A program made the translations under genes and the position numbers. A DNA stretch of 64,000 nucleotides, taken from the NCBI RefSeq assembly GCF_036013645.1, contig NZ_CP107869.1, forward strand, positions 2,294,001-2,358,000. Reading direction: 5' to 3'. A model generated the notes under the pieces. That model was not told the DNA's origin, made no database searches, and saw only the letters and a program-made list of their open reading frames with translations. Of this stretch, positions 1 to 9,515 are shown piece by piece; the stretch's first letter is position 1, and each line of letters opens with the position of its first letter. The stretch comes from Streptomyces sp. NBC_00490. GTDB taxonomy: Bacteria; Actinomycetota; Actinomycetes; Streptomycetales; Streptomycetaceae.

Positions 1-91
1 CGCCGACGCCGCGCAGGTCAAGCACGGTGTCGGCATAGCGCGCACCGGCGGGGCCGATGGAGTAGAGGCGGACCCGGGACAGCTCGTACAT
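1..91 (-). CDS. N-terminus of SMC/MukB-like ATPase (JetC-like), partial
   Basis: An ATG at 91-89 on the minus strand opens a frame that runs off the left edge. It encodes 30 residues beginning MYELSRVRLYSIGPAG. This start, a short beta-strand followed by a segment leading toward a P-loop, fits the large condensin-type ATPases that Streptomyces genomes carry downstream of two small subunits. The gene begins 36 bases after the stop of the winged-helix-like gene and shares its strand, so it is very likely in the same operon. Only the N-terminus is visible and no Walker motif is in view, so the assignment rests on gene order and on memory of the family. Confidence 0.5.
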   Translation of the reverse strand, partial: MYELSRVRLYSIGPAGARYADTVLDLRGVG

Positions 92-127
92 GGCGGACTC
101 TCGTAAGTCTTCGGCAGGTGGGGGAGT

Positions 128-1003
128 TCAGGAGTGGAACGGCAGTCCGGCGTCGGCCACCAGCTCGTCGTGGGTGTCCTCGGCGGGCAGCAGCGTCGGT
201 GTGCCGTCGGTGACCGGGACGACGCCCAGTTCCAGCAGTTCGGCCATGGCGGCGCTGCCGGCCATGTCCCGCACCTGGAGCTGGTAGCGGGCCGTCGTGC
301 GGTAGGTGCCGCCGTTGTCGTCGCCGGTGCGCTGGAGGAACCCGGAGTCGGTGAGGAAGGCGACGGCCTTGCCGACGATGCCGGTGGTGGAGCCCGCGAG
401 TCTGCGCGCGTCCTTGGTCGCACCGGTCGCGCTGCGTCTCACCCAGATCCGCCAGGCGGCCTCGAGCCCGGGCGCGTCGGTCGCGGGGTCGGTGTTCTCG
501 CCCAGTTCGTCGGCCCGCTCCTCCAGCCGCCGGCAGGCCTGCCGGACGAACGCGTCGACGCCGTTGACGCTCACCCGTCCGATGTACCCGTCGTCGGCGA
601 GGTCCTCGGGGCGCGGGAACGCCATGGCGGCCACGGCGAGATGGGCCAGCCCGTGCAGGAACCGGTCCGATCCGTCGGCGGACGTGCGTCGCGCGTAGTC
701 GCCCATCCGCACGGCGAACACGGAGTCCTCGGCGGCGGTCACGGCCATCCCCGCGCGCGGGGACACTTCGAGCACGACAAGACCGAGGCCGGTGGCCACG
801 GCATCTGCGAGCCGGGCGAACGGAGGGTCCTCGCGGTAGCGCCGCAGCAGCTCGCTGTACTCCTGATCGCGGGCGGGCTGCAGTTTCGGCTGTAGCCCAA
901 AGGCAACAAGCCGAGCGGCATCGGCGGCGTCGGCAGGCGTGACGGCGGCAGAAACGGGGGCGGGCCCGGCTTCCGGCTCACTCCACTCGACGTGCTCGGT
1001 CAC
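128..1003 (-). CDS. MukE/JetB-like small subunit of a condensin-type system (putative)
   Basis: A 291-residue protein starts at GTG with AAGGAG ten bases upstream. No transport signal or membrane segment is visible. The C-terminal third (about 190-270) looks like a winged helix: a run with GIVGKAVAFLTDSGFL followed by a wing-like GGTYRTTARYQLQVRDMA. The N-terminal half is helical. In MukBEF, MksBEF and Wadjet systems the gene between the kleisin and the ATPase encodes a winged-helix dimer (MukE/MksE/JetB) that binds the kleisin. Position, size and fold signature here agree. I infer the role from context; the sequence alone would be called hypothetical. Confidence 0.5.
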   Translation of the reverse strand: MTEHVEWSEPEAGPAPVSAAVTPADAADAARLVAFGLQPKLQPARDQEYSELLRRYREDPPFARLADAVATGLGLVVLEVSPRAGMAVTAAEDSVFAVRMGDYARRTSADGSDRFLHGLAHLAVAAMAFPRPEDLADDGYIGRVSVNGVDAFVRQACRRLEERADELGENTDPATDAPGLEAAWRIWVRRSATGATKDARRLAGSTTGIVGKAVAFLTDSGFLQRTGDDNGGTYRTTARYQLQVRDMAGSAAMAELLELGVVPVTDGTPTLLPAEDTHDELVADAGLPFHS

Positions 1004-1050
1004 AACGGCAACTCCTTGTGCTGGTAAACGGGCGTACGACTAGCCCACCT

Positions 1051-1096
1051 AGGGGCGCGGGGAACTGCGCGACCAGTCACAACGGACCCGCACCCG
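1051..1096 (+). repeat. Dispersed Streptomyces intergenic repeat, copy 1
   Basis: The segment begins AGGGGCGCGGGGAACTGCGC, continues GACCAGTCAC, and ends with a CCGCACCC-like tail. Closely related copies lie at 58772-58816 (same orientation) and 33211-33246 (inverted). Such short GC-rich elements are common between Streptomyces genes. This copy sits inside the condensin-like operon, between the first and second genes; the other two lie between convergent genes. Confidence 0.7.
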
Positions 1097-1106
1097 GCAA
1101 CGAACA

Positions 1107-2633
1107 TCACGCCGCCTCCGTCCGATCCGCAGCCATCCCCACGGCATCCAACAAGGCCATCCCGACAATGAGATCCGCCCCGCCGAACTCGGGATCTTCC
1201 AACTCGGTCCCGTCGTCCACGGCGAACAACAGCTTCTCCTCGCCCTGCCGATAGGCGGTCCCCACCGCCGGACTAGCCGCATGAACCGCCAACAGGGCCA
1301 CCAGATAAGGCAGCTCAGGATCCTGACGGCGAGCCTCCGCCAGTAGCCCCGACAACCGCCGCGGCGCATCCGCGGGCAGATCCAGCAGCTCCATCGCCGA
1401 GGCCAGCTGCTCCTCGCTGAACCGGCTGTCGTCCGGTGTGGCGATGAGGTCCGGCTCGGGCATCTCCGCGCCGAGGTGCTCGCGCTCCACCGGCGGCGTC
1501 AGCAGTATGTCGACGAGGTCACCGACCCGCACCGACACCGGCGTACGCAGCCCGGTCCCGTGTGCGAAGAACGCGTCGGTGACCCGGACCGCCTGCTCCA
1601 GGGGCAGCGGGAGCACGGGCGCGACCAGATGCCCGTAGAGGTCGATCCCCGACGTCGTCATGGGTGTGGCGAAGGCCTGCCGGTCCTGCTCGGCGCGGAA
1701 CAGCGGCCCCGCCTCCAGCAGCCTGGACTGGAGCTGCGTGTGGCGGCGGATGCAGTCCTTGACGATGTCGACCAGCTCGGCGGCCCGCCGCTTCTGCTCC
1801 GGGTCCTCGGACTCGTCCCGGGCCTTGCGGATGTTGGTGAGGATCGCGTTCTCGTGGCGGTAGCGGTCGGCGACGTGGTCGAGCGCCTCGGTGATCATGT
1901 CGGGCACGGCGTTGAGCCAGTCCACCGCGCGGACGTTGCGCCGGGTGGCGTCCAGGGCGCGGCGCAGCGTCTCCGAGTACTGCACGGTCCGGTACCGGGC
2001 CTGCTCGGCGGCGAGCTGGGCGTCGGCCAGGCGGCCGCGGCTGATCAGCACCTCCAGCTTGACCTCGGCGGCGATCTGGGCGCTGGTGACGTCGGTGTCG
2101 AGGGCGCCGACCAGGACGTTGACGGCCTCGTCCGTCGTGCGGAGGTACACCGAGCCGCCGGGGCCGGGCACCTCCTCGATCAGCTTGAAGTCGTAGTCCC
2201 GCCGGACATAGGTGCCGTCCGTCGCGAAAGTGCCGTAGACCGCCCGGAATCCACGGTCCACGCTGCCGACGTTGATCAGGTTCTCCAGGACCCAGCGGGC
2301 CACCCGCTCATGCTCGGCGACGGGCCGCTGCGGGGCCTGGGCGGCGATGCGCGGGATGAGGCGGGCGACTATCTGGTCGTGGTCGGCGCCGGTGTCGAAG
2401 TCCATGTTCAGGGTGACCAGGTCGATGGCCGAGAGGGCCACCTCCGCCATGCCGTACACCGAGTACTCGCCCGCGAGGTTGGCCTTGCGTGCGTCGAGGT
2501 CGTGGAGCGGCGCGGTGCAGGCGAGCGCGCGCAGCCGCCGCGCCAGCCCCTCGTCGGCGGCCGGGCCCGGTGCCGGGCGCGGCCCCGCGCTGAGCTGGGG
2601 CGGAACGCTGTCCGTCGTAGCAGGCGAAGTCAC
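1107..2633 (-). CDS. Kleisin-like subunit (JetA/MksF-like) of a condensin-type system, putative
   Basis: About 508 residues if started at the GTG at 2633; an in-frame GTG at 2678 would add 15. The protein is soluble and mostly helical. It has a winged-helix-like N-terminal region (residues about 30-110), a long charged helical middle with a KARDESEDPEQKRR stretch near residue 280, and an acidic C-terminal domain. This layout resembles JetA/MksF/MukF kleisins. It is the first gene of a minus-strand operon with a winged-helix-like subunit and an SMC-like ATPase, the jetA-jetB-jetC order. A TAGTCT element lies just upstream of the 2633 start, so a leaderless mRNA is possible. The family call is inferred from architecture and order. 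Confidence 0.5.
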   Translation of the reverse strand: MTSPATTDSVPPQLSAGPRPAPGPAADEGLARRLRALACTAPLHDLDARKANLAGEYSVYGMAEVALSAIDLVTLNMDFDTGADHDQIVARLIPRIAAQAPQRPVAEHERVARWVLENLINVGSVDRGFRAVYGTFATDGTYVRRDYDFKLIEEVPGPGGSVYLRTTDEAVNVLVGALDTDVTSAQIAAEVKLEVLISRGRLADAQLAAEQARYRTVQYSETLRRALDATRRNVRAVDWLNAVPDMITEALDHVADRYRHENAILTNIRKARDESEDPEQKRRAAELVDIVKDCIRRHTQLQSRLLEAGPLFRAEQDRQAFATPMTTSGIDLYGHLVAPVLPLPLEQAVRVTDAFFAHGTGLRTPVSVRVGDLVDILLTPPVEREHLGAEMPEPDLIATPDDSRFSEEQLASAMELLDLPADAPRRLSGLLAEARRQDPELPYLVALLAVHAASPAVGTAYRQGEEKLLFAVDDGTELEDPEFGGADLIVGMALLDAVGMAADRTEAA

Positions 2634-2710: not shown

Positions 2711-3406
2711 CTAGCCGTCCTCGCCGACCCGTCGCCGGTACACCTCGACCACCCGCTCCAGCGAGTCGTCCAGGTACACGGCGAGCAGCTTCTCGGCCTC
2801 CTCGCGGTCCCCGGCCTGGAGGGCCCCGAGGATCTGGCGGTTGCGGGCCAGGTAAGGCTCGTGGAGCGCCTTCGGGTCGTCCACCACGTGGAAGGCGAGC
2901 CGCAGTTCGGCGAAGACGCTGCGCATCAGCTCGTCGGTGCGCTCACTGCCCGCGAGCGCGACCAGCTCCCGGTGGAAGTGGATGTTGGCGGTGCCCAGCG
3001 CTTTCCAGTCACCTTCACGCACCGCCCGCTGTCCGGCGGCGACGGCCTCGGCGAGCCCGTCCTCGGCGTACGGCGGCTCACCCAGCCCGCGCACGACGGC
3101 GCATTCGACGAGGCGGCGGGTGCGGTAGATGTCCTCGACGTCCTCGACCGTCAGGACCCGCACGAAGACGCCCCGGTTCAGCTCGTGGACGAGCAGGCGT
3201 TCGTGGGTGAGCAGGCGGAACGCCTCCCGCAGGGTGTTGCGGGACACCCCGAGCGCGCCTCCGATGCTGTCCTCCGACAGCCGGGTCCCGGGCGGGAAGT
3301 AGCCCTCGGCGATACGGCTTCTGAGGATGTCCGAGACCCGCTCCGCCGTGCTGGTGCGGCCCAGGAGGGCACGGTCGTCGGCCAGGCCGGTCAGCTGCTC
3401 TGCCAT
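2711..3406 (-). CDS. GntR-family regulator with FCD domain (FadR type)
   Basis: A 231-residue regulator. Residues about 20-85 form a GntR winged helix, with RIAEGYFPPGTRLSED and GVSRNTLREAFRLL as the recognition region. Residues about 95-225 form an all-helical FCD ligand domain; the IYRTRRLVE and NIHFHREL segments carry the Asp/His positions that usually bind metal and ligand. It is divergent from the MFS-pxp operon, with a perfect FadR-type operator in the 130-base intergenic space. It probably represses that operon and itself, responding to a small acid such as 5-oxoproline or D-glutamate. The ligand is inference. Confidence 0.88.
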   Translation of the reverse strand: MAEQLTGLADDRALLGRTSTAERVSDILRSRIAEGYFPPGTRLSEDSIGGALGVSRNTLREAFRLLTHERLLVHELNRGVFVRVLTVEDVEDIYRTRRLVECAVVRGLGEPPYAEDGLAEAVAAGQRAVREGDWKALGTANIHFHRELVALAGSERTDELMRSVFAELRLAFHVVDDPKALHEPYLARNRQILGALQAGDREEAEKLLAVYLDDSLERVVEVYRRRVGEDG

Positions 3407-3536: not shown

Positions 3537-4832
3537 ATGAGCACGACTCCCCCGCCACAGGCCCTGACCGCTCAGTCCACGACGACCGAACACCCCGCCG
3601 ACGACGGTCCGTTGGGCTGGTTCCGCGCCCTCGGTCCGCGTGGCCGCCGCGCCTTCGCCGGCGCGTTCGGCGGCTATGCCCTCGACTCGTACGACTACTT
3701 CACGCTCCCGCTGAGCATGGTCGCGCTGGCCGCGTACTTCGGTCTGGACAGCGGCCAGACCGGCCTGTTCACCACCGTCACCCTGCTGGCCTCCGGGCTC
3801 GGCGGCGCCCTCGCGGGCGTCCTGGCCGACCGCGTCGGCCGGGTCAGGGCCCTGATGATCACGGTCATCACCTACGCCGTCTTCACCGTGGCCTGCGGCT
3901 TCGCGCCGAACTTCGAGTCACTGCTGGTCTTCCGCGCCCTCCAGGGGATCGGCTTCGGGGGCGAGTGGGCGGTCGGCGCGATCCTGGTCGCCGAGTACGC
4001 GAGCGCGAAACACCGGGGCCGCACGCTCGGCGCGATCCAGAGCTCGTGGGCCGTCGGCTGGGGCCTGGCCGTGATCGCGTACACGCTGGTCTTCTCGGTC
4101 TTCGACGACGACGTGGCCTGGCGCGTGATGTTCTGGACGGGCGCGCTGCCCGCCCTGCTCGTCGTCTGGATGCGCCGCCGGGTGCAGGACGCGCCCGAGG
4201 CCGTCGCGGTCCGCGAGAAGAGCGCCGGGCAGACCTCCTTCACGGCGATCTTCAAGCCTGACCTGCTGCGTACGACGATCTTCGCGGGCCTGCTGTCCAC
4301 CGGCGTCCAGGGCGGCTACTACACCCTCGCCACCTGGGTTCCGACGTATCTCAAGAGCGACCGCGGCCTGTCGGTCGTCGGCACCGGCGGATACCTCACG
4401 TTCCTGATCTCCGGCGCCTTCCTCGGCTATCTCACCGGCGGCTACCTCACCGACCGTCTCGGCCGCCGCCGCAACATCTGGCTCTTCGCGCTCCTGTCGG
4501 CCGTCTGCATCCTGGCGTACGGCAACATCCCGGAGGGCTCCAACACCCTGCTCCTCGTGCTCGGCTTCCCGCTCGGGTTCTGCATGTCGGCGATCTTCAG
4601 CGGCTTCGGGTCGTTCCTGGCCGAGCTGTACCCGACGGCGGTGCGCGGCACGGGACAGGGGTTCACGTACAACGCCGGGCGCGCGGTCGGCGCCGTCTTC
4701 CCGACCACGGTCGGCTTCCTGGCCGACAGCTGGGGTGTGGGCGGTGCGCTGGTCTTCGGCGCGATCGGCTACGGCATCGCCGCACTGGCACTCTTCGGCC
4801 TGCCGGAGACCCGCGGGAAGGAACTGCTGTGA
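3537..4832 (+). CDS. MFS transporter (metabolite:H+ symporter type)
   Basis: A 431-residue permease. I start at ATG 3537; the frame is open further upstream, but that region overlaps the operator and regulator gene. About 12 membrane segments are visible. The loop 2-3 signature [10 protein letters not shown], the [15 protein letters not shown] helix followed by HRGR, and the second-half TDRLGRRR repeat are typical of the sialic-acid/aromatic-acid/metabolite:H+ symporter branch. Its stop overlaps the next start by 4 bases (GTGA). As first gene of the pxp operon it probably imports the substrate, likely 5-oxoproline or a glutamate-related acid; that choice is inference. Confidence 0.85.
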
Positions 4833-5650
4833 ACCGCACGGAGGACCGCCCCCTGACCCTCGTCGACGAGCACGCGCACGCGTGGAGCCCGCAAAGCGCC
4901 CGGATGCGCTTTCGCGCGGGCCTGACCGGCCCCACCTCCGGGGTCGCGGCCGGCCACACCCAGGTCAACCTGATCTCGGTGCCCGCGGACTGGGCGTACG
5001 ACATGCTGCTGTTCTGCCAGCGCAATCCGAAGCCGTGTCCGGTGCTCGACGTCACGGACGCCGGTTCCGCCACCACCGTCCTGGCCGACGGCGCCGACCT
5101 GCGCACCGATCTGCCGCGCTACCGGGTGTGGCAGGACGGCAGGCTGGTGGACGAGCCGACCGACGTGCGCGCACACTGGCGTGAGGACCTGGTGTCGTTC
5201 CTGATCGGCTGCAGCTTCACCTTCGAGTGGGCCCTGACCGAGGCCGGCGTCCCGATCCGCCATCTGGAGCAGGGCCGCAACGTCCCGATGTACGAGACCA
5301 GCTGGCAGTGCCGGCCGGCGGGACGCCTGCACGGCCCGATGGTGGTGTCGATGCGTCCCGTCCCGCCGGAGCACCTGTCGGCGGCGATCCGGGAGAGCAG
5401 TCTGCTCCCGGCGGTGCACGGCGGCCCCGTACACTGCGGCGACCCGTCGACCCTCGGCATCGACGACCTCGATCGCCCCGACTTCGGGGACCCGGTGGAC
5501 GTCGAGCCGGACGACATCCCGGTGTTCTGGGCCTGTGGAGTGACCCCGCAGGCCGCGGTGATGGCCTCGCGCCCGCCGTTCGCCATCACCCACGCGCCCG
5601 GCCAGATGTTCCTCACGGACGCCCGCGACCAGCAGTACCGAGTGGCCTGA
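4829..5650 (+). CDS. DUF1445 protein, D-glutamate cyclase / putative hydro-lyase family
   Basis: A 273-residue soluble protein from a GTG overlapping the transporter stop. Family signs include [17 protein letters not shown] near residue 46, [13 protein letters not shown] near 128, [14 protein letters not shown] and VHCGDP. These match the DUF1445 family, often annotated as putative hydro-lyase. The mammalian relative DGLUCY converts D-glutamate to 5-oxo-D-proline. Placed directly upstream of pxpABC, whose product opens 5-oxoproline, the gene fits a route feeding oxoproline into glutamate. The stop lies 32 bases before pxpA. Activity of the bacterial members is less well established, so the reaction is an inference. 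Confidence 0.8.
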
Positions 5651-5682
5651 GCAGTGGCCTCGGAAGGAGACTCGGAAGTGCC

Positions 5683-6441
5683 ATGACCTCCATCGATCTG
5701 AACGCCGACCTCGGCGAGGGCTTCGGCCGCTGGCAGCTCACCGACGACGAACAGCTGCTGTCCGTCGTCACCAGCGCCAACGTGGCCTGCGGCTTCCACG
5801 CCGGGGACCCGGCGACCATGCGGCGGGTGTGCGAGCAGGCGGCCGAGCGCGGTGTACGGATCGGCGCCCAGGTCTCCTACCGGGACCTGGCCGGGTTCGG
5901 GCGGCGCGCGATGGATGTGCCGCCCGACGAACTGGCGGCCGAGGTGGCCTACCAGATCGGTGCCCTGGAGGTCTTCGCGCGCGCGGCGGGCACGCGCGTG
6001 TCGTACGTGAAACCGCACGGCGCGCTCTACAACCGCGTCGTGCACGACGACCAGCAGGCCGGCGCGGTCGTCGACGGTGTGCTCCTCGCGGACGCGACCC
6101 TGCCCGTCCTCGGCCTGCCGGGCTCGCGTCTGCTGGACCTGGCCGCGAAGGCGGGCCTGCCGACGGTCACGGAGGCGTTCGCGGACCGCGCGTACACCGA
6201 CGCCGGCACGCTCGTGCCGCGCGACCAGGAGGGCGCGGTCGTCACCGACCCGGACACCGTCGTGGAGCGCTCGCTGGGCCTGGCCCGGGACGGCACGGTC
6301 ACCGCGCACTCCGGCACCCGCATCGAGGTGCGGGCACGCTCGCTGTGCCTGCACGGGGACACCCCGGGCGCCGTGGAGCTCGCCCGCCGGGTCCGGGAGC
6401 GGCTGACCGCGTCCGGCATCCTCGTGGCGGCCTTCGCATGA
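5683..6441 (+). CDS. pxpA: 5-oxoprolinase subunit A (LamB/YcsF family)
   Basis: 252 residues from ATG 5683, with AAGGAG-like sequence upstream. The N-terminal LNADLGEGFGRW and the VACGFHAGDP segment are family hallmarks, followed by SYVKPHGALYN. PxpA works with PxpB and PxpC as the ATP-dependent bacterial 5-oxoprolinase, hydrolysing 5-oxo-L-proline to L-glutamate in the cytoplasm. The stop overlaps the pxpB start (ATGA), so the subunits are translationally coupled. Full length and intact. Confidence 0.95.
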   Translation: MTSIDLNADLGEGFGRWQLTDDEQLLSVVTSANVACGFHAGDPATMRRVCEQAAERGVRIGAQVSYRDLAGFGRRAMDVPPDELAAEVAYQIGALEVFARAAGTRVSYVKPHGALYNRVVHDDQQAGAVVDGVLLADATLPVLGLPGSRLLDLAAKAGLPTVTEAFADRAYTDAGTLVPRDQEGAVVTDPDTVVERSLGLARDGTVTAHSGTRIEVRARSLCLHGDTPGAVELARRVRERLTASGILVAAFA

Positions 6442-7055
6442 GGGCGCTGCCGGTCGGCGACGACGCGCTGCTCGTCGAGGTCTCCTCGGGCGAGGAGGCG
6501 CAGTCGCTGCACGCGGAGCTGCTGCGCCGCCGCGCGGAGGGCTCCCTGACCGTGGCCGAGATCGTCCCCGCGGCCCGCACGGTCCTCCTGGACGGCCTGG
6601 CCGACCCGGCCCGGCTGGCCTCCGAACTGACCGCCTCCGCCGTACCGCCGTCGCCCCCACGCGCGCGTGACGTCGTCGAACTCCCCGTGCGCTACGACGG
6701 TCCGGACCTGGCCGACGTGGCCGCGCACTGGGGCGTCGCACCGCACGAGGTGGCCCGCATCCACGCGGCCACCGAGTTCACCGTCGCGTTCTGCGGGTTC
6801 GCCCCCGGCTTCGGCTACCTCACCGGGCTCCCGCAGGAGTACGACGTCCCGCGCAGAGCGACCCCGCGCACGGCCGTCCCGTCCGGTTCGGTGGGTCTGG
6901 CGGGCCCGTACACGGGGGTGTACCCGCGCTCGTCGCCGGGTGGCTGGCAGCTGATCGGCACGACGGACACGGTTCTGTGGGACCACACGCGCGTGCCGGC
7001 GGCACTGCTGTCACCGGGCACGCGCGTGAGGTTCGTACCGGTGGGCGCGGCATGA
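6438..7055 (+). CDS. pxpB: 5-oxoprolinase subunit B (KipI-like)
   Basis: 205 residues from ATG 6438. The family motif FCGFAPGFGYLTGLP is present in the second half (near residue 120), followed by PRRATPRTAVPSGSVG and YPRSSPGGWQLIG. PxpB is a cyclophilin-like fold protein; the Bacillus relative KipI inhibits the KinA sensor kinase, but in a pxpABC operon the metabolic role is the expected one. It overlaps pxpA by 4 bases and pxpC by 4 bases. Confidence 0.95.
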   Translation: MRALPVGDDALLVEVSSGEEAQSLHAELLRRRAEGSLTVAEIVPAARTVLLDGLADPARLASELTASAVPPSPPRARDVVELPVRYDGPDLADVAAHWGVAPHEVARIHAATEFTVAFCGFAPGFGYLTGLPQEYDVPRRATPRTAVPSGSVGLAGPYTGVYPRSSPGGWQLIGTTDTVLWDHTRVPAALLSPGTRVRFVPVGAA

Positions 7056-7921
7056 CGGACCGCGCACTCGTCGTCGTACGGGCCGGGGCGCTGACCACCG
7101 TGCAGGACCTGGGCCGTCCGGGCCACGCCCACCTGGGCGTGCCCCGCTCGGGGGCCCTGGACGGCCCCGCCGCGGCCCTCGTCAACCGCCTGGTCGGCAA
7201 CGCGCGAGGCGCGGCCGTCCTGGAGACCACACTCAACGGCTGTGCCGTACGACCCCGTTCGGCGGCCCTCGTGGCCGTCGGCGGCGCCCCCTGCCCGGTG
7301 ACGGTGGACGGCCGCCCGGTCGCCTGGGGCGCCCCGGTACGGGTGCCCGCGGGCGCCCTCCTGGACGTCGGTACGGCCGTCGCCGGTCTGCGGACCTATG
7401 TGGCCGTCTCCGGCGGCATCACCGTCGAGCCGGTCCTCGGCAGCCGCTCCACGGACCTCCTGTCGGGTCTCGGCCCGCCCCCGCTCAGGGACGGCGCGGT
7501 CCTCCCCCTGGGCGCCCCGACCCACCTCCACGCACGCGTGGACGCCGCCCCGCAGCCGGCGCCTCCCGCGGAACTGGTCCTGCACGTGACGCGAGGCCCG
7601 CGCGACGACTGGAGCACACCGGAGGCGCTGCGCACCTTCACGTCCCGCACCTACCGGGTGTCCTCCGCGAGCAACCGCATCGGGCTACGGACCGAGGGCC
7701 CGGCGCTGGAGCGTGCCGTCCCGGGCGAACTCCCGAGTGAGGGCATGGTGCTGGGCGCCATCCAGGTCCCTCCGGACGGCCGCCCGGTGGTGTTCCTGGC
7801 GGACCATCCGACGACGGGTGGCTACCCGGTGATCGCGGTGGTCCGCACGGCAGATCTCCCGGCGGCCGCTCAAGCGGTACCAGGCACTGAGGTGCGCTTC
7901 CTGGAAGTACGCCGACGCTGA
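7052..7921 (+). CDS. pxpC: 5-oxoprolinase subunit C (KipA-like)
   Basis: 289 residues from an ATG overlapping the pxpB stop. Early VQDLGRPGHAHLGVPRSGALD and later RVSSASNRIGLR and DHPTTGGYPVIAVV are conserved in biotin-dependent-carboxylase-like KipA/PxpC proteins. It forms the ATP-using 5-oxoprolinase with PxpA and PxpB. It is the last gene of the operon; an 8-bp stem hairpin about 110 bases downstream may terminate transcription. Confidence 0.95.
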   Translation: MTDRALVVVRAGALTTVQDLGRPGHAHLGVPRSGALDGPAAALVNRLVGNARGAAVLETTLNGCAVRPRSAALVAVGGAPCPVTVDGRPVAWGAPVRVPAGALLDVGTAVAGLRTYVAVSGGITVEPVLGSRSTDLLSGLGPPPLRDGAVLPLGAPTHLHARVDAAPQPAPPAELVLHVTRGPRDDWSTPEALRTFTSRTYRVSSASNRIGLRTEGPALERAVPGELPSEGMVLGAIQVPPDGRPVVFLADHPTTGGYPVIAVVRTADLPAAAQAVPGTEVRFLEVRRR

Positions 7922-8031
7922 CCCGCTCAGGGGCGCGGTGCCGGGGGTCTGGCGGGCGCAGTGGGCCACGTCGTTCACGTCGGGGAACGGACAAGGGAAC
8001 GTCCCATGAGCGTTGCCTCGCACCCCGTGCA

Positions 8032-8060
8032 GGTCAGGCCGTGTCCATGCGCGCCTGACC
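8032..8060. terminator. Possible hairpin terminator between convergent genes
   Basis: GGTCAGGC and GCCTGACC pair perfectly across a 13-base loop. The hairpin lies between the convergent pxpC and HEAT-protein genes and could end either transcript. No U-tract follows. Confidence 0.45.
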
Positions 8061-8096
8061 CGCGGGTCACCCCGAGTTCACCCTGAGGGCAGGCCT

Positions 8097-9515
8097 TCAC
8101 ATCATGGTGGCGTCCGGTCCGATCCGGCTGCGTACGGCTGTCTGGACCTCGGCTTCCTCGGCCGGGTCGGCGGCGAGGCGGCGGAGCTGTTCGACGACCC
8201 GGGCGTCACCGGTCTCGGCGTGCCGGGCGGCGATCTCGCGGGTGGTCTCCTCGCAGTCCCAGAGGCATTCGACGGCGAAGCCGGTGGGGTAGGAGGGGTC
8301 GGTGGCGGCGAGGGCCCGTGCGGCCCGGCCGCGCAGATGGGAGGAGGCCGTCTCCCGGTAGATGTGGCGGAGCACGGGTGCGGCGCAGGCGATGCCGAGC
8401 CGTCCGGTGCCGTCGACGAGGGTCCACAGGGTCGGTGCGTCCGGCCCTTCGCCTCGTACGGCCTCGCGCAGGGCCGCGAGCACCAGGTCCGTGTCCTGCG
8501 TTCCGCCGCGGCAGGCGAGCATGCGCCCGGCGGCGGCGCCCAGCGGATCGGGCCGGTGGACCCAGCCGCGGGCCCGGTCGACGGCGGCGACACTGCGCAT
8601 CCGTTCGAAGGCGTCGACGGCGGCCTCCACGACCGGCGCCGATCCGGTGACCACGGCCGCCTCGATGAGATCGAGAGCCTCCGGATCACTGCTGTCGGCG
8701 AGGTAGCGCAGCGCGGTGCAGCGGGCGCCCTCGGTGCCGTCCACGGCGGCGGCGACGATCTCGGTCCGGTCCTCCGGGCCCGCGACGGCCATCAGGCAGC
8801 GGGCGGCGGGCACATGGCGGGCGGTGCCGCGTTCGATGCCCTGCTCGGCCCACTCGAAGACCGCCTGCACGCTCCACCCCGGGCGGGGCCCGCTGGGTCG
8901 CATCTGGCGTTGCCAGCGGTCGAAACAGCCGGTCTCCTGGGCGGCACGTACGCGTGTGGCGATGGATTCGCGCGGATCCTCCGCCCACAGCCGCCACGGC
9001 CGTGGTTCGAAGGCGTCCCGCACGGTGGCGGCCAGCTCGGCCTCGCCCTCGGCGTCGGTGCCGAAGCGGGCCAGCACGGGGGCGGCCAGGGCGCGCAGCC
9101 CGGCGTCGTCGTCCCTGAGGGCGAGCTCGTCCAGGGCCCAGGCCCAGTTGGAGCCCGAGGCGGCGTACCTGCGCAGCAGTTCGAGCGCGTCCCGCCTGCC
9201 GTAGGAGGCGAGGTGCCCGAGGACCGCCAGGGCGAGCCCGGTGCGGGACTCCTCGTCGTCGAAGTGGTCCTCGACGTCGAAGAGATGGGTCTCGATCTCG
9301 TCCAGCTCACCGTTCAGATCGAGGTAGAGACGGGCGTAGTAAAGGGAGCGGTTCTCCACCTGCCAGTCGTGGCGGGGGTCCCGCAGCACGCAGTGGTTAA
9401 GAGCCGCGAGCGCCTCGGCGCGCGGTGCGGTGAGCGCGTGCAGTGTTCCGTCGCCGCGGCCCCTCTGGAGGAGGCCGAGCAGCGTACCGCTGGGCGCTAT
9501 GACCGGTTCGAACAT
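8097..9515 (-). CDS. HEAT-repeat-like protein of unknown function
   Basis: About 472 residues if begun at ATG 9515, which has GTGAGG upstream; an in-frame GTG at 9530 would add 5. The protein is soluble, acidic and almost all helical. Several 30-40 residue units of the type ALDLIEAAVVTGSAPVVEAA resemble HEAT/armadillo repeats, mainly from residue 230 on. There is no catalytic motif, signal peptide or membrane segment. Such proteins usually serve as binding scaffolds. It stands alone, convergent with pxpC and about 300 bases from an ankyrin-repeat gene on the same strand. Function unknown. Confidence 0.75.
   Translation of the reverse strand: MFEPVIAPSGTLLGLLQRGRGDGTLHALTAPRAEALAALNHCVLRDPRHDWQVENRSLYYARLYLDLNGELDEIETHLFDVEDHFDDEESRTGLALAVLGHLASYGRRDALELLRRYAASGSNWAWALDELALRDDDAGLRALAAPVLARFGTDAEGEAELAATVRDAFEPRPWRLWAEDPRESIATRVRAAQETGCFDRWQRQMRPSGPRPGWSVQAVFEWAEQGIERGTARHVPAARCLMAVAGPEDRTEIVAAAVDGTEGARCTALRYLADSSDPEALDLIEAAVVTGSAPVVEAAVDAFERMRSVAAVDRARGWVHRPDPLGAAAGRMLACRGGTQDTDLVLAALREAVRGEGPDAPTLWTLVDGTGRLGIACAAPVLRHIYRETASSHLRGRAARALAATDPSYPTGFAVECLWDCEETTREIAARHAETGDARVVEQLRRLAADPAEEAEVQTAVRSRIGPDATMM

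Follow-up and report, generated by a model that had tools for sequence, protein, structure and literature searches.

In Wadjet defence systems, JetABC constitutes a sensor which is thought to extrude DNA loops and JetD the cutter (available text of PMC10586767). The same source considers MksBEF of Pseudomonas aeruginosa, which contributes to chromosome organisation, as likely derived by loss of JetD and describes MukBEF as having apparently replaced Smc-ScpAB in its hosts; the conversion of defence motors into chromosome organisers by loss of the nuclease has so far been proposed for these two, MukBEF and MksBEF (PMC10586767). Equally, the complexes MksBEFG and EptABCD of Corynebacterium and Mycobacterium are, as the system reported here, actinobacterial and SMC-like, but have retained a fourth subunit, the nuclease MksG or EptD (available text of PMC10123090; PMC10586767). 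The subject of this analysis is an operon at the left edge of a 64,000-nucleotide stretch of Streptomyces sp. NBC_00490 (below, the window; G000:C1:2294001-2358000), a genome of 10.8 Mb in two contigs, where three minus-strand genes at positions 1-2633 encode a 508-amino-acid protein, a 291-amino-acid protein and the 5' part of a 1551-amino-acid SMC-like protein. The reading which we favour, with moderate confidence, is that this operon represents the motor JetABC of a type III Wadjet system that has been kept without JetD as a second condensin.

A preliminary description of this DNA had read the three genes, in this order, as kleisin, small winged-helix subunit and SMC ATPase, and lengths, strand and order could be confirmed. 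PADLOC assigns the first gene product to JetA3 (PDLC00567, E=5.4e-186) and the third to JetC3 (PDLC00588, E=0, 1411 bits), with the KITE-like JetB in between assigned by fold. The long gene, which starts with MYELSRVRLYS (its first 30 codons correspond to window positions 91-2) and in full covers L010:5436-10091 on the minus strand, encodes with its P-loop LENGGGKS, signature SGGQ and Walker B-like LFLDN the SMC-type ATPase of more than 1000 residues that had been anticipated to the left of the window. JetB is matched by none of the PADLOC JetB3 models at E<=10. Since JetB proteins accompanied by JetD mostly escape these profiles as well (among three tested, L031 is matched weakly, E=7.6e-4, and the other two are unmatched), the profiles seem narrow; the 291-amino-acid protein is 50% identical to the L031 JetB. 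In structure searches, the predicted model of JetB (predicted local distance difference test score, pLDDT, 78) was nearest to MukE and JetB of the solved MukBEF and JetABC complexes and the predicted model of JetA nearest to MukF, with modest scores, so that the structural comparison suggested earlier for the two smaller proteins came out in favour of their assignment. By homology and predicted fold, JetB is a KITE subunit of type III Wadjet, and the operon provides SMC, kleisin and KITE subunits without a nuclease as in a MksBEF-type condensin.

Known domain libraries contribute little to this assignment. Pfam and NCBIfam contain Muk/Mks models; at E<=0.001 neither a Muk/Mks-type nor any other family was matched by JetA, JetB or JetC, and at E<=1 Pfam gave for JetB just two rows (0.28 and 0.55) and no convincing family. 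The best 120 relatives of JetB are 87-96% identical, and those with names are nearly all Streptomyces 'hypothetical proteins', the annotation that had been predicted. With MukBEF the operon shares the predicted folds, MukF-like for JetA and MukE-like for JetB, but it differs in that MukBEF chains were unmatched in PDB sequence searches, which gave no result of use, and in that the genome analysed keeps the canonical SMC too (C1:7136126-7139698, 930 bits).

The ATPase motifs have been preserved in the JetD-less loci, with the P-loop GKS and the SGGQ signature intact in 48/48 JetD-less JetC rows as in most JetD-bearing ones. SMC proteins usually carry Asp-Glu at the end of Walker B, where all 60 JetC-III rows have LDN; as JetD-bearing JetC rows share this ending, it is a family trait and not decay, and a loss of ATPase activity through LDN in place of LDE was rejected. 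Some variation was observed on the side: the P-loop of one JetD-bearing JetC row (L068) reads GKG, and the profile-matched JetC stretch mostly spans 1525-1731 amino acids in Streptomyces and Frankiaceae (exceptions are L048 with 2035 and L060 with 1150), 1470-1508 in Pseudonocardiaceae and 1425-1493 in JetD-bearing rows.

The subunit that is missing is the nuclease. A JetD or toprim gene had been expected after the ATPase gene, an expectation that failed: none lies downstream, and neither the type III model JetD3 (PDLC00594) nor JetD_C (PF09983), which covers any type, has a match in the 10.8-Mb genome at E<=0.001. The operon thereby resembles Wadjet type III in gene order, JetA3 and JetC3 families, ATPase motifs and KITE- and kleisin-like predicted folds, but differs in that JetD3 is absent from the operon and undetectable in the genome, and equally in that the Streptomyces trio is a core locus where type III systems are patchy or plasmid-borne. 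MksBEF of P. aeruginosa is likewise a nuclease-free kleisin-KITE-SMC trio; the Streptomyces trio, however, is Wadjet type III by sequence and extends across the sampled Streptomyces and many Frankiaceae and Pseudonocardiaceae.

Within the genus Streptomyces, the trio has the distribution of a core locus. Among 61 same-genus genomes, including the one analysed, JetA was matched in 60 (best copies 80-96% identical), JetB in 60 and JetC in 61, JetC being partial in some fragmented assemblies (for example, positions 1-411 in G002). The sole JetA miss is an assembly of 82% completeness in 1770 contigs, and in the 59 genomes that are at least 90% complete each of the three proteins was matched without exception. 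An order-level sample overlapping with the former showed JetA in 184/197 genomes, that is in 181/181 of the genus, in the single other member of the family and in 2/15 of other families. In 14 of 15 fetched orthologous Streptomyces loci the trio stands together, and in none is it accompanied by JetD. One genome (G012, locus L043) has JetA, JetB and two JetC pieces far apart along one contig; these scattered pieces most likely point to misassembly, and natural loss was rejected.

Equally, the trio is under purifying selection, with pairwise Nei-Gojobori ratios of nonsynonymous to synonymous substitution rates (dN/dS) against 12 relatives of 0.04-0.22 for JetA, 0.05-0.22 for JetB and 0.11-0.33 for JetC. 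That the operon is the decaying remnant of a defence system, as the missing JetD might suggest, is highly improbable given the presence of all three genes in every near-complete genome, dN/dS well below 1 and the intact P-loop and signature in all JetD-less rows; chance open reading frames were rejected along with a decayed system on the grounds of dN/dS, motifs and conservation.

JetD-bearing type III loci do occur in Streptomyces as second, divergent loci. JetD3 matches were found in 11 of the 61 same-genus genomes, in five of which (G007, G022, G032, G057 and G058) they are near full length, covering at least 79% of the model, and these are exactly the genomes with a second JetA, divergent with 25-53% identity; in all five second loci JetD directly follows JetC. 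The remaining six genomes have weak matches over short stretches (E 2e-7 to 7e-4), at genes better matching JetD_C, a model above cut-off in 9/61 genomes and also in the control Corynebacterium glutamicum. JetD is likewise found directly behind JetC in the divergent loci L067, L068 and L069, which brings the fetched divergent loci of the genus and Frankiaceae with a visible end to 8/8, while L066, another divergent locus, ends at a contig end. On plasmids, JetA relatives of 24-52% identity were found in five records, and 5/5 show the same arrangement, JetD directly after JetC, all plasmid matches being less than 60% identical. Both states coexist within one genome in S. ferrugineus, with the JetD-bearing L031 and the JetD-less L036. 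Further Streptomyces genomes showed second JetA matches in the order-level search; the counts given refer to the fetched loci. Among the JetD-bearing loci, JetC of L033 (G057, 3688-8219) is split into two overlapping frames and the system may be broken, and L070:10902-12424 (G240) is a type III remnant with the C-terminal part of JetC and JetD only. A published survey found Wadjet systems of Streptomyces enriched towards the chromosome ends (available text of PMC10482375); we infer that complete Wadjet systems were counted there.

Outside Streptomyces, JetA relatives and JetD-less trios were traced at several levels. By protein matches to JetA, the group reaches Kitasatospora, Peterkaempfera, Actinacidiphila, Allostreptomyces and further Streptomycetaceae. 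A sample at class level had JetA matches in 43/296 genomes, 28 from Streptomyces and 15 from one other family, Frankiaceae by protein names, with JetA 60-63% identical; some genomes with the code of this family, such as G077, are without a JetA match. The matches fall into 5/114 genera, none of which is identifiable as Pseudonocardiaceae, though JetA proteins recorded under Pseudonocardiaceae names share 57-63% identity with the query. No JetD follows JetC in any of the 10 Frankiaceae loci, out of 15 fetched, that show at least 1 kb past JetC. JetD3 was matched in 19/296 class-level genomes: strongly in Streptomyces G170, G240 and G301 and Frankiaceae G210, G300 and G309, over half of the model in G230, and by weak and short matches in 12 more. 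A second divergent JetA is present in G170, G301, G300 and G309, a JetC remnant in G240, and G210 is without a JetA match.

A scan of named genomes with a JetB alignment retrieved at least 79 loci, at least 72 of them from Pseudonocardiaceae by title. Among the matches listed, 2/71 Pseudonocardiaceae loci reaching the end of JetC have JetD after it, those of Tamaricihabitans halophyticus and Amycolatopsis rifamycinica. When 40 loci chosen from the 79 listed were followed by a whole-genome JetD search, 31/38 Pseudonocardiaceae genomes were without JetD3 at E<=0.001, the other seven being the two adjacent cases and four strong and one weak JetD3 match elsewhere in the genome. The Pseudonocardiaceae trio is placed between whiA, on its upstream side, and gapA, on its downstream side, in the whiA/gapA-pgk cluster, for which uvrC, rapZ, a yvcK-like gene, whiA, gapA and pgk were checked by Pfam in A. 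marina. The upstream gene order is seen in 4/4 of the Pseudonocardiaceae loci listed, with some genes uncalled in individual loci, and a same-strand gapA lies within the flank in 59/71, with other genes often intervening. JetD-bearing trios in the same scan are from Actinoplanes, an Aeromicrobium metagenome-assembled genome, two Streptomyces and one Frankia (L032 and L067 are among them), and Cellulomonas timonensis has a JetD-less trio.

The history of the JetD state was followed on two trees of joined JetA, JetB and JetC heads, both made by the 'quick' method. Rows of the first, with 60 rows, were chosen from the available loci; in the second, with 48 rows, the long-branch L034, L035 and L069, the Frankia L060 and nine near-copies were left out and the plasmid row L150 was included. 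Both consist of loci other than L033, with its split JetC, and the cut or partial ones. On these trees the JetD state has to change at least five times, also when starred branches only are counted. The clade of Streptomyces and Frankia received Shimodaira-Hasegawa-like approximate likelihood ratio test (SH-aLRT) values of 100 and 82 in the two trees, and a single loss of JetD in this clade is likely. Because JetD is present in every deep row, its loss offers the simplest reading both for Streptomycetaceae together with Frankiaceae and for Cellulomonas. Pseudonocardiaceae may have lost JetD and then gained it twice, or may have lost it many times. The JetD of A. rifamycinica (L099:15061-16278) stands beside a JetC nested among near-identical sequences of JetD-less sister species, and can be either a recent re-arming or a lone survivor; no JetD relics were detectable at the loci of the sister species. 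Relics behind Pseudonocardiaceae JetC in general were considered and rejected, the short tblastn matches (E<=1e-3) falling into the stretch of L099 that overlaps JetC and is located ahead of the JetD domain.

Taken as a machine, JetABC probably works as a condensin. JetC would dimerise via its hinge, JetA would close the ring at the JetC heads with JetB bound, and the complex would extrude loops on the host chromosome in an ATP-driven manner beside SMC-ScpAB, JetD having presumably been lost in the Streptomyces lineage, with comparable JetD-less trios in Pseudonocardiaceae and one Cellulomonas. The Wadjet-like anti-plasmid system envisaged in the preliminary description stands with respect to the type III motor JetABC but not to an armed defence system, with JetD missing and a core rather than patchy locus. 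From the two roles suggested there, chromosome organisation in hyphae is the stronger and anti-plasmid activity the weaker one because the locus is core for the genus and not a patchy defence locus. Nevertheless, plasmid control might function without a nuclease, if JetABC recognised small circular DNA through its total loop extrusion and silenced or excluded it by compaction, a mode of action proposed for Smc5/6 on viral circles, or passed it on to an unrelated nuclease. Linear DNA is left alone by JetABCD, and circles may be compacted by Smc5/6 (available text of PMC10586767). In favour are the intact motor motifs and the homology of the three proteins to the anti-plasmid sensor. Streptomyces chromosomes are linear, and a sensor of shape would spare them. 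We regard this explanation as unlikely in view of genes that are core, largely syntenic and slowly evolving, unlike the patchy JetD-bearing copies, and of Pseudonocardiaceae copies that reside within a housekeeping cluster.

The surroundings of the operon (Table 1) bear on a further alternative, a full Wadjet system with an unrecognised effector. On the 3' side of jetC, a convergent small gene of membrane type (L010:4818-5402, plus strand) is followed by the gene for a CvnA-like kinase with a NIT domain. This small protein, or else a diverged JetD elsewhere, could be the effector, and a match to the small gene is indeed present within the fetched stretch of 11/15 Streptomyces loci, close to jetC in 10. 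The gene is, however, convergent, has no Pfam match and is unmatched in the 15 fetched Frankiaceae loci; neighbours after JetC vary from family to family, and the genome analysed lacks JetD3 and JetD_C at the cut-off given above, which makes an unrecognised effector even less likely than nuclease-free plasmid control. In the 15 fetched Streptomyces stretches, the CvnA-like kinase is matched in 10 and the GntR regulator in nine.

Table 1. Features of the jetABC operon and its upstream flank in window coordinates
Feature	Position	Strand	Basis
JetA-III (kleisin, MukF-like), 508 aa, P0003	1107..2633	-	PADLOC JetA3; model nearest MukF
JetB-III (KITE with a pair of winged-helix domains), 291 aa, P0002	128..1003	-	predicted model and homology
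JetC-III 5' end (SMC ATPase, 1551 aa, P0001)	1..91, on to G000:C1:2289436	-	PADLOC JetC3; motifs
Dispersed short repeat in jetA/jetB gap, outside functional complex	1044..1105	.	genome self-matches
GntR/FCD regulator, upstream neighbour, conserved flank, outside complex	2711..3406	-	Pfam GntR and FCD

Smaller features complete the picture. The start codon of jetA is GTG; starting from another GTG in the same frame at 2678, the protein would have 523 amino acids. The repeat between jetA and jetB recurs at no fewer than 46 other places of the genome on both strands with 84-98% identity and is without an Rfam match; a structured RNA in this gap was rejected with no Rfam match and a fold not better than shuffles.

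The preservation of a nuclease-free motor as a core operon suggests that hyphal bacteria have converted a defence motor into an additional machine for organising the chromosome. More tentatively, at somewhat short of an even chance, hyphal actinomycetes might have repeatedly discarded the nuclease of an anti-plasmid machine and thereby made it a second, core condensin. This would have happened once in Streptomycetaceae and Frankiaceae or before them, and independently in Pseudonocardiaceae, whose motor lies within the whiA-gapA core cluster. The proposal of nuclease loss would become testable with JetD-bearing and JetD-less relatives in S. ferrugineus (L031, L036) and in Amycolatopsis sister species (L099). 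A second condensin of Streptomyces is not named in the available text of PMC13121528 (2026), PMC4255302 (2013) and PMC4255298 (2013), and no published description of the Streptomyces operon was found by title or beginning of the abstract in the open-licence literature. Chromosome folding in Streptomyces has been studied with SMC as the condensin, to which a core JetABC would add another candidate for loop extrusion; it might help to explain the viability of smc mutants in S. coelicolor (available text of PMC4255302). If the reading is true, Hi-C and segregation work in Streptomyces would have missed a second loop extruder.

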